From Coleophoma eucalyptorum (Eukaryota; Ascomycota; Leotiomycetes; Helotiales; Dermateaceae): a DNA stretch of 64,000 bases. Shown one piece after another: positions 2,010-22,181 of this stretch. A program made the translations under genes and the position numbers. Each line of letters begins with the position of its first letter. Within the stretch, counting starts at the first letter, position 1. Below the pieces are notes generated by a model. The model had not been told where the DNA came from, ran no database searches, and saw only the letters and a list, made by a program, of their open reading frames with translations. The stretch spans positions 439,255 through 503,254 of the forward strand of contig JALRME010000028.1 of NCBI GenBank assembly GCA_026120035.1, given 5' to 3'.

Positions 2010-5000
2010 TCACTTCGACCAAAACGCAACCAAATCATCAAAATCTTTATCAACGAGATCGACCGCCCTCTTCTTTGGAATCCTCTGCTTCCCAGTCAGT
2101 ATGGTCCTTTCCACGAAAACTTCCGAATACACGCGGAAGCACATGTGAAGTTCCTTATCCGCTTTTTCAATTAAACCCAGGAAGCGTAAAGCACGAGACT
2201 TTTTAAAAGAAGCACGAATCTTTTCGGGCCTATAATTGCTTGACATTGAATATGTCTTGAGCGCATGGTCTAACAGAACTATCGCGGTATCGTACTGGTA
2301 GGAACGAATATTGTGCTCGGCAAGTTTGACAAAAACCGCTGCTGTGCGGTGGTGATTGTTGCCCAGAGTAGATTTATATTGTAGGAGCGCTTTGTGATGG
2401 TAGTTGTGGCTTTCCTCCGAGGAATTTTGGTCGTAGGCTACATTTCCGAGTGCGTGGTAGAACCTTCCTGAACTATTGTCGAGATTGATTAGCTTATCTT
2501 GTTCTGGTAACATGGATCAGGGAGATAACTTACATAAAAGATATTCGATCCTGGATACCATACTTTTCTTCGCGGTCGCGTATTCCCCTCTCGAGGACTA
2601 CAGCAGCTTCGTCCAACCTGCCTTGCAACCAATATGCATAGCCGAGATTCACTAACGGAAGGGATATCAATACTGGCTCATACTGTTCGAGCTGTTCTAG
2701 TAAGTCAATGGATTGTAGGAAGTACTTTTCGCCTTGGATCCAATCCTCCTTAAGCATATAAGTGTTGCCAAGCTCATTACAAGCAAGGCCGAGTCGCATG
2801 TCGTTATGTCCAGTCTTTTTGCCAAGTTCCTTTTGCATCATGTGGTGAAAGCTTCTGAGATTATTCATCGCTTCAACAGCATCATTGGCATCACTCGCAA
2901 TACAACCCCGATTGTGATAAAGCTCTGCCCGGACGTAATCGAGTTGCGCGTGCGTAACTCCTTGATCAGAAAGTGCTTTGGGAGATTCATAAAGCCGGAA
3001 CTTAAGCGACTCGCAAATGGACTGAGCCATATTGTTAAACAGGTTTGACTCAATGGGTCTGCCACGCTCATGTAGGTACCTGATATGAGTTAGTAGAGTC
3101 CGCTGTCGAGCTAAATTTAGAGCTCACCATCCAGCATCTGTAAGTAATTTAGCAAAGTGGTAGTCATCTGAGGTCTCTGAGGATGGGGGGACCGCTGGGA
3201 AAAGGTCTTTCAACTTGGAGATATGCGGAAACAATTCCTCACAGCTTGGCCAACGAGCAATTCCATGACGCCATTCGAAGCTCTCAAATGGCCAAATAGA
3301 TGATATCAGCTTCACACAAGCAACAAGAGTTTGTCTGAACTCTGAATGCCCCATTCGTGCTCTGGCAACGTCTTGGACCAGTCTATGAATGAACAACTTA
3401 TGCTCCTGTTTGTTTTCCGTTACAAGCGAACAAGCTAAAAGCTCCCTTCTCGCGTTCTGGTATTCTTCAATCGTGGCAGGATAGCCAGGAAGATCGATTT
3501 CATTCATGGTGCTTGTAAAGAGCCGCTCTGGGATACCATCCGGGTCAATCATCGACATCACATTCAATAGTTTTCTTCCGTGTTTGAGATTCTCGAACGC
3601 CCAGATAGAGGCAACAGTATGCTCATAACTTAGTGACTTGAGCTCGGTTTGAAGTTGCAACAGCTCCCGCTGACTTTCTCTCTCATTGTAAGAATCCAGG
3701 AATTGACTAAAGCTTAGCTTCTTCGTAATCATGATGCTAGCCATTTGGGTCAAAGCCAGGGGAAGACCACCCAATCGCGTACTAACATTGGTTACGCTTT
3801 CTCTTTCAACATCAGAGATTTTTCTACCAGTTAACATCAATAGGAAGGCAATAGCCTCGTCTGAAGTAAATGGCAGGAGTGGTAACGACCTTGCCCAGGA
3901 GAAAGGATTGCGGCTGGTGATAAGGACAGACCCTGGGCCGTCATACGGCCAGTAATCATTAAGGATATCCGGATCTTGTACGCCATCGTAGATCAGCAGC
4001 CAAGATATAAACTTACGCGGCTTTCTGCTACCATCTATGTCACGAGCTCGTGGATTCACCAGCCAGCGTTTAACAGTCTCACGGGTATACAGGAGGTCGT
4101 TAGCCTCTATAGAGCCTTCAGGGATAAGGTCAAGTAGTATGGCAATCCGTTGAAATCCATGAGCCATCTCATTAACGCTGTCTGCGTTAACCCAGAAAAT
4201 CGCATCAAACTGTTCCTTATACATAAGTGCAAAACGAATAGCCACTTGGGTTTTGCCCATACCACCTGGAGCGCAAATTGCAAATGTGAGTGGATATGTC
4301 ACTGCTTTACCATCCACTGGTTTGGAAGAGGGTTTTGGGCACAACTCCGCCTTGATTGCGTTCAAGGCGTAATTACGGCCAAAAAAGTTCTTATTGAGAG
4401 GAGTCGGAGGCATCATATAGACAGGCAGTTCTGGGCCAGTGCATCGGTCCGCACCGGAGGAAGTGTCGAGATACAGCCTTCTGAGTAGTTTCTGTAAGAT
4501 TGGATCTCTGTCATGGCCAAAATACTCAGGCCGTCGAATGAATCCCCATTCTTCGTCGTATGTCTTCAGAATCACATTGCTGCTAGGAACCGCGAAAGTT
4601 TCAACTTCCCATTCGTTTCCTTGGGTGACCTCCTGAGGCTCGTCTTCAAATTGGAGCGATAAGTCGTCTGCGAACGAAAGAGACGACCTGTCATCGTCAC
4701 TTTCGTGTCCTTCATCTGCTTGCTTAGATGCTTCCTTCTCGCTTGGCGCCTCCTCCTCTACGTTTTCCTGCCACGGTAGGGCTTTCATTGATAGAGCCTG
4801 CAAGTGTAAAGCCAAGTGTTTAGCCACATCTTCCGAAATACTTTTGTCGTACTCATATTTTCGATTAGGGTCCATTCCCTTGGCGGTGATAAGAGTCCTA
4901 ATTTTCTCCTCGGATGGCTCGTAAGCACAAAGAGGACAGGCAGTAAACATGCGTGCAGATGGACCTTGGCTTCGCTTTTTGTACCAAGGCATCTGATTCT

Positions 5001-6448
5001 CTTTAAAACCCCTTGCATGATCAACCCGCATATGATCTTCGAACTCTTGCTCTGTTTCAAAGATACTCGGTTTATGGCCGGCAGCCGTGCAGGTCCATTG
5101 CCTTGTGTGCGTCTCTTGCATATGAGATATCCACGATGCTCGGTCGCGGAATAACCGTTGCACATCTTTACAATCCTCAAATACGCATACATAGGGCTCA
5201 AGATCGTTCAAAACGTGACGTCTGGTGCAGTTTCTGTTAGGGTCGCTTCGTATGCTCTATTAGGGATGATACTTACGTCCATTGTGAGGAGACCGCCTCC
5301 TTCATTGGAAGCATCATACAGCAGTACGGACATTCAAATTCTTTACTGCCGGGGGATGGTTTTGGTGGATTCGGTACTGCAATAGAGGCTTGTTGGGAAA
5401 AGGCACCCGAAAAGACAGTTGGTGTCCTCGATGGTGATTGTTCTAAGATATCTTCAGTCTTTAGTCTCTTCGAGACTTGAGAAGCCGAGGTTTGTGACGG
5501 CAATATCGACTTCAGAAACCTAGTTTGTTGATTCTGAATAGCTTTGATTGGACTTTCAACAATTGTCCTCGCTATGACCGTTGATTCTGCATCCAGAGCA
5601 GAGGAAGGGGATCGTCCTGCTAGAGATGGTGGAGGAAGATAAGGTTTTGTACTGAGTTTCCTCTGGTGATTCTGCCGGTACAGGAAGCGTTTTCTACGCA
5701 AGGTTACCGATTTTGCAAGTCGTTGACAAATGACTGGAGCGGCATCAGGGAATTGATGGGTTATCCACTTTAGTGCAAATTCAGCAAATTGTTCACTAAC
5801 ATCGTTACCTTCTTCGTCTCTGATCACAAAATTTGCCGCCTTGACATTTTGACTTAGGATCGATGGCCGTCGAATAGCCACAGATAATCGATATAAGCGG
5901 TCGATGGTCTGTTCTACCCCATGGAGCCGCCGCTCGAAGGGACTTCGATCTGGATCCACAGATGTCGAAAACGAGCCATCGGTGTCGGAGCCACGGTATG
6001 ATGAGGACAAGACAGAAGACGCTGACGTTGGGTGGAAACCATCGCTGCTAAGGCTGTCTTCGGAGCAGGGTACTGAAATCAAGAGACTTTCGTCATCTTC
6101 AGCAGGCCTAATAGTGCCAGTTGCTATATAAGCATTAGCGACTTTTATCAAAGTTTCTTTGAAGTTGGGGCTCTAGAAACCTCGTCGGATGTAGTTCTTG
6201 AGACTCCTCAAAAGATCAAGCATAAGGTTTCTGGCTTCATAGCTATCGCGCAGTCTATAATCAAGAGATGCGTGTCCATCTGCGAAGACACCAATGTTCG
6301 CTGCCCAAATTTCAAATCGGGCTTTTTGCTCGTCACCATCAAGGTCGGTCGCATTGAGGCGGTCATCCCCAGTAGGCTGCACGGCTACAAGAGCTCCAAA
6401 ATCCGACAAACATTCCGACGCTCGACTTTGAATCTCCAAGGATTCCAT
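2010..6448 (-). CDS. NLR-like NB-ARC/TPR protein with C2H2-like fingers
   Basis: A fungal STAND/NLR-type protein of about 1405 residues. Proposed exons: 6181-6448, 5277-6123, 3128-5221, 2534-3079, 2010-2472. The N-terminal block (residues 1-89) contains ARFEIWAANIGV and ASLDYRLRDS, typical of a large ascomycete family. A Ser-rich linker follows, then Cys/His finger-like segments (FECPYC; VCVFEDC; ACPLC) around residues 355-475. The NB-ARC ATPase has Walker A APGGMGKTQVA (about 690), Walker B WLLIYDG and the VLITSRN element; the C-terminal 330 residues form TPR repeats (ELGNTYMLKEDW, NLGYAYWLQGRLDEAA). Such proteins are thought to sense ligands through TPRs and signal to a death or defence effector. 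Introns 2473-2533, 3080-3127 and 5222-5276 are well supported by frame. Intron 6124-6180 has a weak GTTTCT donor and contains an in-frame TAG; see findings. It is divergent from the DUF7580 gene. Confidence 0.85.
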
Positions 6449-6824
6449 CTTATCAATTAACTGGATATCCCGACTTCCTCGACAAGAAGAGGGAGCAAAG
6501 GGTAGACGGACGAGTTACTGCAAATTAAGCAAGACTCGTTTGAAAAATGGAACTAGAGACAGCCTCATGCTACCACACCATATGCATGTTACAATTGACG
6601 AGGTGTTGTCTTGTGATGCTGACATGAGGGTAGCATGCTAATTCGTGAGGCTGTTCGTTAGGCTCCAACAAGCCTCTCCCCCTCCCTCAATTCATATCGG
6701 GCGAGCCTTTGCGTCCTCTGCGCGATTGCCGCCTTGAGCGCCTCAGTGTTAGTCTACAAAAGGATTTCCATATCTTGAAGCTCTTTGTAAGTGAAGCTCT
6801 CCTTGTTGTAAGCGAGATTTGACC
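6449..6824. promoter_or_regulatory. Shared divergent promoter region, NLR and DUF7580 genes
   Basis: The 376 bp between the start codons of the leftward NLR-like gene and the rightward DUF7580 gene must hold both promoters. It includes a pyrimidine-rich stretch near 6670-6700 (CTCTCCCCCTCCCTC). No specific factor site is claimed. Confidence 0.5.
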
Positions 6825-8676
6825 ATGATTTGCGGTCTTGAGCTAGCGTTCGCAATCGCGCCGTTAGTGGTGACGGCTACAGAACATCACAGGAAGGTGT
6901 ATCGTAAAACGAAACTAGTTGCATCCTCAAGAGCGAACGATGAGGAGCTTGAAGACTTTCTAGGAGAACTTCACGATGAAATATCTCTTCTTGGCCACAC
7001 CCTTCGATGTCTGATTTCTGACCTCGTAGCCCTCAGCGAGACGCAAAGAGAGAAATTGCTGAACCTTGATCAAGAGCAATGGAAGCAGGAAAATGTTAGT
7101 GTTGCATTGAGGAAAAGGCTGGGCGGTGATGCAGAGATCGCTTTCGCAGATATTCTTGGCCGTCTCTTGAAATCTTTGAATGATGTTGTTAGTGAGAAAT
7201 CACTTCGTTTCATCCGTTCTGATGTAGTAAGTGGTCGCTCTCTGGAGCTAATTCATGGCTGATTTAGTTGGCTGATAATAGAGCAACTCAACCGGCTTCT
7301 TTAGGAAGCTTGAAGGCTTTCGTGAGGACATTGCAAATGGAGCTACAGTTCATGATCTTCGGTCTCGGTTTCAGTTCACTACCAAAGAGGAGCGCCGTAA
7401 TAAGAACCTCAAGAAAATTGCCAGATGCAACAAGAAGTTGGAGCGCTTTGTACACGGGAACCCCACTGGCATAATTGTTGAGGGAACGACGAATAGCTCT
7501 CGGCGCAACGCACAGCCTCCTACAAATAGGTCCCGTAGAATGTCCCACGATGCACACAAAAGGATTGCTCGCAACTGGTCTTGTTCTTGCCCGTCACCCC
7601 ACGAAGCAAGGCTGGGCCTTCTGAAATGCTTGATGAACTCAGATAATGCAGATTCTGCCATTAATCTCGATCTGTTAGTGTCTATTGCGAGTGCAGACCA
7701 GGCAACGGATGTCTGGTTAGAGAGCCGCATCAGAATTCTCCTTGACAAGTAAGTTGTCCAACCAGCTATCAGTTTCTCAGATAAGACCCTAATTAACTTA
7801 ATAAATCACAGGGCTGAGCCAGTCAGCGAGCTACTCACTGGAGAAGAAGCAGATAGGCATTCAATGGTCAGATTCGCGGACGAGAAAGACCCTCTTGAGC
7901 ATGAGGCAGCTCCTAAAGATCCACACCGTTACATCGACACGGAACGAGTTTGTGACTTAATCAAAGAAGCCCACAGTAACAAAAGTAGCCTACAACTTGT
8001 CTTTGATGGAGAAAAACTCTGGCAGGCAAGATCGAGCGGAAGCCATGTAGTCCCCAAGCCAGTATCCGGAATTCCTCTCAAAAGCTTACTTGGACCCTCA
8101 AAATCGGCTCGTCTGAAATTAAAGGAAAGCAGAGCTCTCGCCGTCGTTCTCTCACACGCTATTCTTCACTATTGTGAAAGCCCGTGGGTATCGGACAACT
8201 GGAACAAGGAACACATCAACTTCTTCGTCTCTAGCGATGGGCCTGATTTGATGAGGCCGTATCTTTTAACCCAGTTTGAACCTCTGTCGACAATTCCCGA
8301 AGATACATCAGATAACATGTATAGTCATCCAAGTCCAGCTCTGTTGTCCCTTGGAATCTTGCTCCTCGAGCTTAATCTATCTAAACCGATTGAGTCATTA
8401 TGGGACATTGAGGACACAGAGGATGGCATGGAAAGCGCTAATACGAATTGGATCACCGCGGAAAAGCTGCTAGATTCAATGGGAGACGATCTATACGAAG
8501 GTTACCGGAATGCAATTCAAGCGTGTCTAAAGGTTGATTATGTTGGCGTGGATGACAGCCTGTCTCTCAAAGATGAAGGGTTTAGGAAGATGGTGTATGA
8601 CCGAGTTGTACGACCACTGGAAGCTGAACTAGAGAATGGTTTCCATGTTACTCCAGAAGATCTTGGAGTTTTGTAA
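6825..8676 (+). CDS. DUF7580 protein with HeLo-like N-terminus
   Basis: Three exons, 6825-7226, 7309-7748 and 7812-8676, give about 568 residues. The start is the ATG at 6825. The N-terminus (ICGLELAFAIAPLVVTATEH) resembles the hydrophobic first helix of HeLo-like / STAND N-terminal domains, followed by helical charged segments. The C-terminal half carries elements typical of fungal DUF7580 proteins: LAVVLSHAILHYCESPW (about 388-406) and HPSPALLSLGILLLEL (about 453-468). DUF7580 proteins have no established biochemical role; relation to HeLo domains suggests membrane-directed or signalling activity, which is inference. Intron 7749-7811 is certain from frame; the first intron could end at 7308 (AAG) or slightly later because the better-looking TTTAG at 7304 breaks the frame. 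The neighbour NLR starts 376 bp away on the other strand. Confidence 0.8.
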
Positions 8677-22095: not shown

Positions 22096-22181
22096 TCTTT
22101 GATGGTCTAACGGTCATGATTTCCGCTTGTCAATCGCATTGCAAGCCGCGGGAGATCGGGGTTCGACTCCCCGTCAGAGAG
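22096..22181 (+). tRNA. tRNA-Asp (GUC) with 14-nt intron
   Basis: A full cloverleaf can be drawn. Acceptor stem TCTTTGA pairs with TCAGAGA (one G-U), D-arm GTC/GAT, anticodon stem TCCGC/GCGGG, loop TT-GTC-A, then an intron at the standard position after base 37 (22133-22146), T-arm CGGGG-TTCGACT-CCCCG, and discriminator G73, which is the identity base for tRNA-Asp. The internal promoter B box GGTTCGACTCC is perfect and the A box TGGTCTAACGG is good. Mature length is 72 nt before CCA. The first long T-run downstream (22238-22246) is 57 nt away, farther than usual for a Pol III terminator. Confidence 0.88.

Follow-up and report, generated by a model that had tools for sequence, protein, structure and literature searches.

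A conserved divergent gene pair encoding a finger-containing NLR and a DUF7580 protein in Coleophoma eucalyptorum

Results

Gene pair at the locus

The DNA analysed here, a stretch of 64,000 nucleotides (the window) from the Coleophoma eucalyptorum genome (45.26 Mb in 101 contigs), is part of contig C22 and contains a divergent pair of intact genes encoding a NOD-like receptor (NLR) and a protein with a DUF7580 domain. The NLR gene lies at positions 2010–6448 on the minus strand and has five exons encoding 1405 amino acids. The DUF7580 gene lies at 6825–8676 on the plus strand and has three exons encoding 577 amino acids. The 376 bp between the two start codons (6449–6824) are probably a shared bidirectional promoter. 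These results agree with the initial annotation, in which a complete NB-ARC/TPR gene and a DUF7580 gene were placed on opposite strands with starts 376 bp apart. Gene models were built from splice signals and homology rather than RNA; introns are of the GT...AG type, measure 48–63 bp, and leave the exons of both genes joined in frame. For NLR intron 2, the acceptor site was shifted to match relatives such as P0013, and the resulting 1405-residue model supersedes one of 1409 residues. Protein searches returned the nearest relatives of both genes from Coleophoma, Cadophora, Phlyctema, Agyrium and Rhynchosporium.

Domain organization of the NLR

The gene model, Pfam matches, relatives and sequence conservation together give the NLR the order helical N-terminal module, C2H2-like finger block, NB-ARC, DUF7779 and tetratricopeptide repeats (TPR). 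Most of the helical module (residues 1–89) is encoded by exon 1 (6181–6448), which contains a W..NIG..A..HASLD.R.R stretch conserved among 17 aligned NLRs (15 of 89 search matches and two copies from this genome). Exon 2 (5277–6123) supplies the remainder of the module, a conserved middle block, linkers and the first cysteine pair of the finger block (FECPYC). The remaining finger block, an acidic linker, the NB-ARC with its P-loop and DUF7779 are encoded by exon 3 (3128–5221), the first part of the TPR region by exon 4 (2534–3079), and its end together with the C-terminal tail by exon 5 (2010–2472), all on the minus strand.

The Pfam scan, run on the 1409-residue model only, matched DUF7779 at 95.5 bits and TPR_12 at 47.9 bits, with both TPR_12 and TPR_10 above cut-off; NB-ARC scored 13.2 bits, below its cut-off of 23.5. 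The P-loop (GG.GKT) and GGLPLAL motifs are each retained by at least 16 of the 17 aligned NLRs, both copies from this genome among them. With a nucleotide-binding domain (DUF7779, P-loop, GGLPLAL) followed by C-terminal TPR repeats, the protein belongs to the fungal NLRs, or signal transduction ATPases with numerous domains (STAND NTPases).

Upstream of the NB-ARC, a helical module of ~95 residues is followed by the conserved middle block and the finger block, in which 12 Cys/His columns are invariant across six divergent proteins. The finger-like N-terminal module described in the initial annotation is therefore real. The helical-plus-finger module also occurs, whole or in part, in other fungi, where it precedes ankyrin repeats or accompanies a Zn2Cys6 domain (P0061, P0074, P0094).

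Kinase-like fold of the DUF7580 protein

DUF7580 (PF24476) was matched in the window protein at 162.5 bits against a cut-off of 27. The gene model, Pfam and a structural model of the orthologue P0001 place a helical N-terminal domain before a kinase-like fold. Exon 1 (6825–7226) encodes residues 1–134, a hydrophobic helical N-terminus and possibly a divergent HeLo-like bundle; exon 2 (7282–7748) encodes linker helices and the start of the kinase-like region; exon 3 (7812–8676) encodes the body of the degenerate kinase-like domain, all on the plus strand. By structure and by profile, using the P0001 model, DUF7580 matches protein kinases, and no HRD or DFG catalytic motif was recognisable in the family alignments when read by eye. 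DUF7580 is very probably a pseudokinase, that is, a degenerate protein-kinase fold. The kinase fold is an addition to what the initial annotation had proposed.

Recurrence of the pair within the genome

A second intact divergent pair was identified on contig C8, with 386 bp between its start codons; each of its two proteins shares 71% identity with the counterpart in the window pair. Two single-sequence searches, which score the best candidates only so that further members may exist, located the finger module at a minimum of five places in the genome. Four of these (on C22, C8, C14 and C13) include the helical module, and all four genes stand head to head with a DUF7580 gene, the start codons being 376, 386, 395 and 376 bp apart, respectively. 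Neither the C13 gene (fingers and TPR) nor the C14 gene (fingers) has a Pfam match to NB-ARC. The C14 protein ends in a weakly ELL-like C-terminus (17.8 bits, cut-off 22.9). A comparison of the four intergenic regions, that of C14 being one base short, gave no common 7-mer or 8-mer and two common 6-mers against 1.7 expected. The TPR units of the C13 finger protein (L014:7428–9702, L020) appear by eye very similar to one another, a homogeneity unlike that of the window NLR, and might vary between strains.

The fifth finger match, C5:551474, was set aside as a different C2H2 protein: by eye, its open frame is without a helical N-module, and C5 carries no DUF7580 match. If it were counted, four of five finger genes would be paired rather than four of four. 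The NB-ARC was also considered as the determinant of pairing and rejected, as DUF7779 occurs at 13 places in the genome and a DUF7580 match is nearby only for those on C22 and C8; for the other 11, the nearest on the same contig is 272 kb away. Pairing tracks the finger module and not the NB-ARC, because every finger gene with the helical module is paired, including two without an NB-ARC match, compared with two of 13 DUF7779 places. As this association persists in the two genes without an NB-ARC match, we infer that the pseudokinase is contacted through the finger module.

Conservation of the pair in other fungi

Searches with the DUF7580 protein and the NLR each scored ~8000 candidates from a database clustered at 90% identity. 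In all 13 named fungi matched by both searches, the results were consistent with adjacency. Seven have consecutive locus tags for the two genes. In the other six (Cadophora gregata, Cadophora sp. MPI-SDFR-AT-0126, Phlyctema vagabunda, Viridothelium virens, Lophiotrema nucula and Paraphoma chrysanthemicola), both genes lie on contigs of equal size, a proxy for the same contig; C. gregata was counted although its two tags stem from two strains. Coleophoma was left out because it was matched in two different species, and one further pair of matches fell on contigs of 81,820 each. By the usual classification, which we assume here, the 13 fungi span Leotiomycetes, Eurotiomycetes and Dothideomycetes. 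A DUF7580 match alone was obtained in, for example, Bisporella, Cenococcum, Exophiala and Lophiostoma, and an NLR match alone in Alternaria, Lecanora and Lophium; given the number of candidates scored and the clustering, such organisms were not counted as losses.

The pair is maintained at 39–50% NLR identity between Leotiomycetes loci and other loci. The NLR and DUF7580 phylogenies correlate at 0.94, much of which reflects shared species history, and the two trees are partly incongruent, with Chaetothyriales and Pyrenula loci placed differently. In the NLR tree, the branching near C22 and C8 is poorly supported (0.35, 0.01).

A single head-to-head pair could by itself be a chance neighbourhood retained by slow rearrangement. 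With four of four finger-module genes paired at 376–395 bp and all 13 named organisms in agreement, the probability of linkage without function is negligible, and it is practically certain that the gene pair is real and conserved. The coupling proposed in the initial annotation holds in that the neighbourhood is conserved in relatives, recurring in distant fungi and four times in this genome.

Other DUF7580 genes and the N-terminal domain

DUF7580 was matched at 11 places in the genome, nine of them above cut-off, in a search that likewise scores the best candidates only and may have further members to add. Four are the finger-paired genes and seven have no finger partner. Among these seven, Pfam identified HeLo-DUF7580 proteins on C46 (160 bits), C57 (115 bits) and C9 (82 bits), and HeLo matches below the cut-off of 23.2 on C14 (C14b, at 656 kb; 19.8 bits) and C40 (14.8 bits). 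The C4 protein (L022:2570–4880) is fused to a caspase domain (PF00656, 32.7 bits, cut-off 21.4), and the C28 protein has another helical N-terminus with no Pfam match above cut-off. A DUF7580 protein of Fonsecaea nubica (P0011) is fused to a subtilisin-type S8 protease (PF00082). Because HeLo, caspase or S8 protease domains are carried on the same chain, these relatives appear to be effectors.

Four of the seven genes without a finger partner stand head to head with a protein-kinase gene: C9 (L021; kinase 104.5 bits, 981 bp between inferred starts), C28 (L026; kinase-ankyrin 116.2 bits, 625 bp), C14b (L024, 656–661 kb; 75.2 bits, 686 bp) and C4 (L022; 73.4 bits, 233 bp). By eye, all four partner kinases retain the catalytic Asp and DFG, and a RIPK3/MLKL-like arrangement is possible for these pairs. 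The genome contains at least 136 exon-level kinase matches. If each upstream neighbour is assumed to have a 1% chance of being a kinase, finding at least four among seven has P ~ 3e-7, a descriptive value because the pattern was noticed before the test. Neither a finger nor a kinase partner was found for C46, C57 and C40, whose upstream neighbours are SURF4, a Zn2Cys6 factor and, by eye, an arginyl-tRNA synthetase. We read the DUF7580 proteins as one family, effector-type in character and regulated by a pseudokinase domain, whose members are for the most part encoded beside an activator.

The N-terminus of the window protein was compared with HeLo domains by several methods. Pfam HeLo was found in none of 50 scanned DUF7580 relatives, among the top 25 of 29 families listed, and a PDB profile search with the N-terminus gave no match up to an E value of 10. 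The predicted model of residues 1–134 is helical but weak (pLDDT 65, pTM 0.47). Its structural matches (VIA-align) are generic helical bundles, and HeLo or MLKL chains are not among the 50 matches listed, which does not exclude them. Alignment of the N-terminal profile by hhalign against three HeLo domains of this genome scored 1.1%. A larger comparison used a self-assembled set of five HeLo sequences (C28 without a Pfam HeLo match, C57 without its first exon, C9 and C14b with approximate exon joins) and scored 58.5% (E 1e-4) in one direction and 1.2% in the reverse direction. The higher-scoring alignment is colinear over 163 columns, of which 58 remain after realignment, and the score falls to 2.7% and 10.9% when the family is split. 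No control, whether reversed, shuffled or unrelated helical, exceeded 0.7%. The one-directional profile evidence is suggestive and would link the N-terminus weakly to HeLo. Of the HeLo-like hydrophobic N-terminus in the initial annotation, the hydrophobic and helical character stands, whereas the HeLo assignment is qualified by the absence of a Pfam match, the low model quality and a profile match in one direction only.

Selection on the pair

The C22 and C8 copies have diverged to a synonymous substitution rate (dS) above 1, and the ratio of nonsynonymous to synonymous rates (dN/dS) is ~0.1 for each gene, indicating purifying selection on both. Across the 17 aligned NLRs, with region borders set by eye, the mean majority-residue fraction was 0.68 for the TPR region, 0.66 for the NB-ARC, 0.61 for the finger block and 0.43–0.47 for the linkers.

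These data bear on a role in allorecognition (heterokaryon incompatibility), which the initial annotation had raised as a possibility. Among fungal het genes, a sensor of variable non-self is expected to be most variable in its repeats. Here conservation of the TPR region matches that of the NB-ARC, and an allorecognition pair is accordingly very unlikely; the low dN/dS between the two copies and the maintenance of the pair at the NLR identities given above point the same way. In its favour, known fungal NLR/HeLo-protein pairs include incompatibility genes, according to excerpts of two reports (PMC3321046, PMC12881547). A conserved intracellular trigger or a guarded host protein would fit the data, and judged from these sequences a conserved trigger appears to fit better than allorecognition.

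Other features of the window

GC content over the gene pair is 0.44–0.48. In an AT-richer flank (GC 0.39–0.40), a short open frame on the minus strand (464–790) resembles by eye the start of a GNAT acetyltransferase and may either be a fragmentary gene or extend further across introns. A tRNA-Asp (GTC) at 22096–22181 on the plus strand was the only Rfam match above gathering score within the window.

Discussion

The interpretation that we favour, with moderate confidence, is that the finger-NLR and the DUF7580 protein form a receptor/executor unit that brings about cell death or a comparable response, with cell death as the presumed output. The NLR, with its finger module, NB-ARC and TPR, would be sensor and switch, and the DUF7580 protein its dedicated partner and probable executor, with an MLKL-like layout of helical domain and pseudokinase. 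In such a unit, the signal would be registered either by the TPR region or by a guarded host protein, and the NB-ARC would oligomerise, as is typical of its family. The clustered finger modules might then bind the DUF7580 pseudokinase, as the pairing suggests. The helical domain, once freed, would target membranes, so that the compartment is killed or sealed off, a step modelled on the fusions of DUF7580 relatives to HeLo, caspase and S8 protease domains. In such a system, activation of an MLKL-like pseudokinase effector would proceed with no amyloid motif common to the two proteins.

Two observations weigh against an executor role. No HeLo domain has been demonstrated in the window protein, and the tight head-to-head linkage and equal C22/C8 divergence of the two genes would fit a guard/guardee or receptor/inhibitor relationship as well. 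Pseudokinases are, moreover, often scaffolds. The DUF7580 protein could accordingly be a brake, scaffold or guarded host protein of the NLR, with the output made by something else. This is considered unlikely, as HeLo or caspase domains are attached to other DUF7580 proteins encoded in this genome, which accordingly appear to be effectors. A signalling unit apart from cell death is less probable still. In that case the fingers would serve stress or nucleic-acid sensing, and the pseudokinase would be an adaptor for the control of transcription or growth. Nucleic-acid binding is possible for C2H2-like fingers, the paired C14 finger protein has the weak ELL-like C-terminus, and the genes are conserved under purifying selection, but the NLR layout and the fusion of DUF7580 to HeLo, caspase and S8 protease domains in relatives argue for an immune or death role.

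The receptor/executor reading finds partial parallels in described systems. In excerpts of PMC3321046, the NWD2 (STAND) gene of Podospora anserina adjoins the HET-S effector gene and is divergently transcribed, the clustering is conserved, and orientation differs between species. The window pair resembles this system in the evolutionarily conserved adjacency of an NLR gene and a partner gene. It differs in that the NLR has a finger module in place of the amyloid motif, the partner has a pseudokinase domain, and each of the four pairs in this genome has the head-to-head arrangement. PNT1, an NB-ARC-TPR receptor, is clustered with the HeLo-like effector HELLP, and both share a PP/RHIM-like amyloid motif (excerpts of PMC12881547). 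The window pair likewise places an NB-ARC-TPR receptor and a partner in a two-gene cluster, but no motif common to its NLR and DUF7580 protein was found. Within 8 of 16 pairs compared by blastp, three gave no match up to an E value of 1 and the other five gave weak matches at differing places (best E 0.015); hhalign scored 0.5%. The lack of a shared amyloid motif noted in the initial annotation is thereby borne out, and on present evidence the pair falls outside the amyloid-signalling NLR/HeLo class because of it. The pair may nevertheless work in a manner like HET-S/NWD2 and HELLP/PNT1.

The window DUF7580 protein also resembles animal and plant MLKL and fungal HELL proteins with a kinase or pseudokinase domain in placing a helical domain at the N-terminus, ahead of a kinase fold in which catalytic motifs are lacking. 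Unlike in MLKL, the assignment of its N-terminus to HeLo or a four-helix bundle (4HB) is only suggestive, and its gene neighbour is an NLR rather than a kinase. One sentence in the excerpted PMC12881547 states that some HELL domains belong to kinase or pseudokinase proteins, so an MLKL-like layout in fungi appears to be already known in outline. The same excerpts name an S8 protease class among the NLR sensors that control gasdermins. A survey of Sordariales, as excerpted (PMC12258605), lists 34 NLRs with C2H2 and places zinc fingers C-terminally in 52 of 57 NLRs, where they are read as sensors. C2H2 fingers in an NLR are common to those proteins and the window NLR, but in the latter the fingers stand N-terminally, behind a helical module, and a DUF7580 gene is the neighbour. 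No papers on DUF7580 or DUF7779 were found in the open-licence literature, which excludes most subscription journals and preprints, and no finger-NLR/pseudokinase or kinase/HeLo-pseudokinase gene pair was described in the titles or abstract openings of the papers listed there.

A broader proposal is offered tentatively, with more doubt than conviction. DUF7580 proteins could be fungal pseudokinase executors, most of them wired head to head to their own activator, either a finger-module receptor with or without an NLR core or an active kinase. The kinase-paired members would then be RIPK3/MLKL-like, and the NLR-paired members would be under direct NLR control through zinc fingers rather than amyloid templating.

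Fungal NLRs are abundant and few have a known output. In the excerpted literature, NLRs that control a separate membrane-active protein use either amyloid motifs (HET-S, HELLP) or proteolysis (gasdermins). Because the NLR/DUF7580 pairs are small, intact and recurrent in other named fungi, the link between the two proteins can be tested experimentally. PF24476 is a domain of unknown function in Pfam, for which the kinase fold and the fusions supply a candidate function. If the receptor/executor interpretation is true, a conserved NLR/pseudokinase pair without a shared motif would be another coupling route, and it could tie fungal NLR signalling to a necroptosis-type gatekeeping of a killing domain by a pseudokinase.

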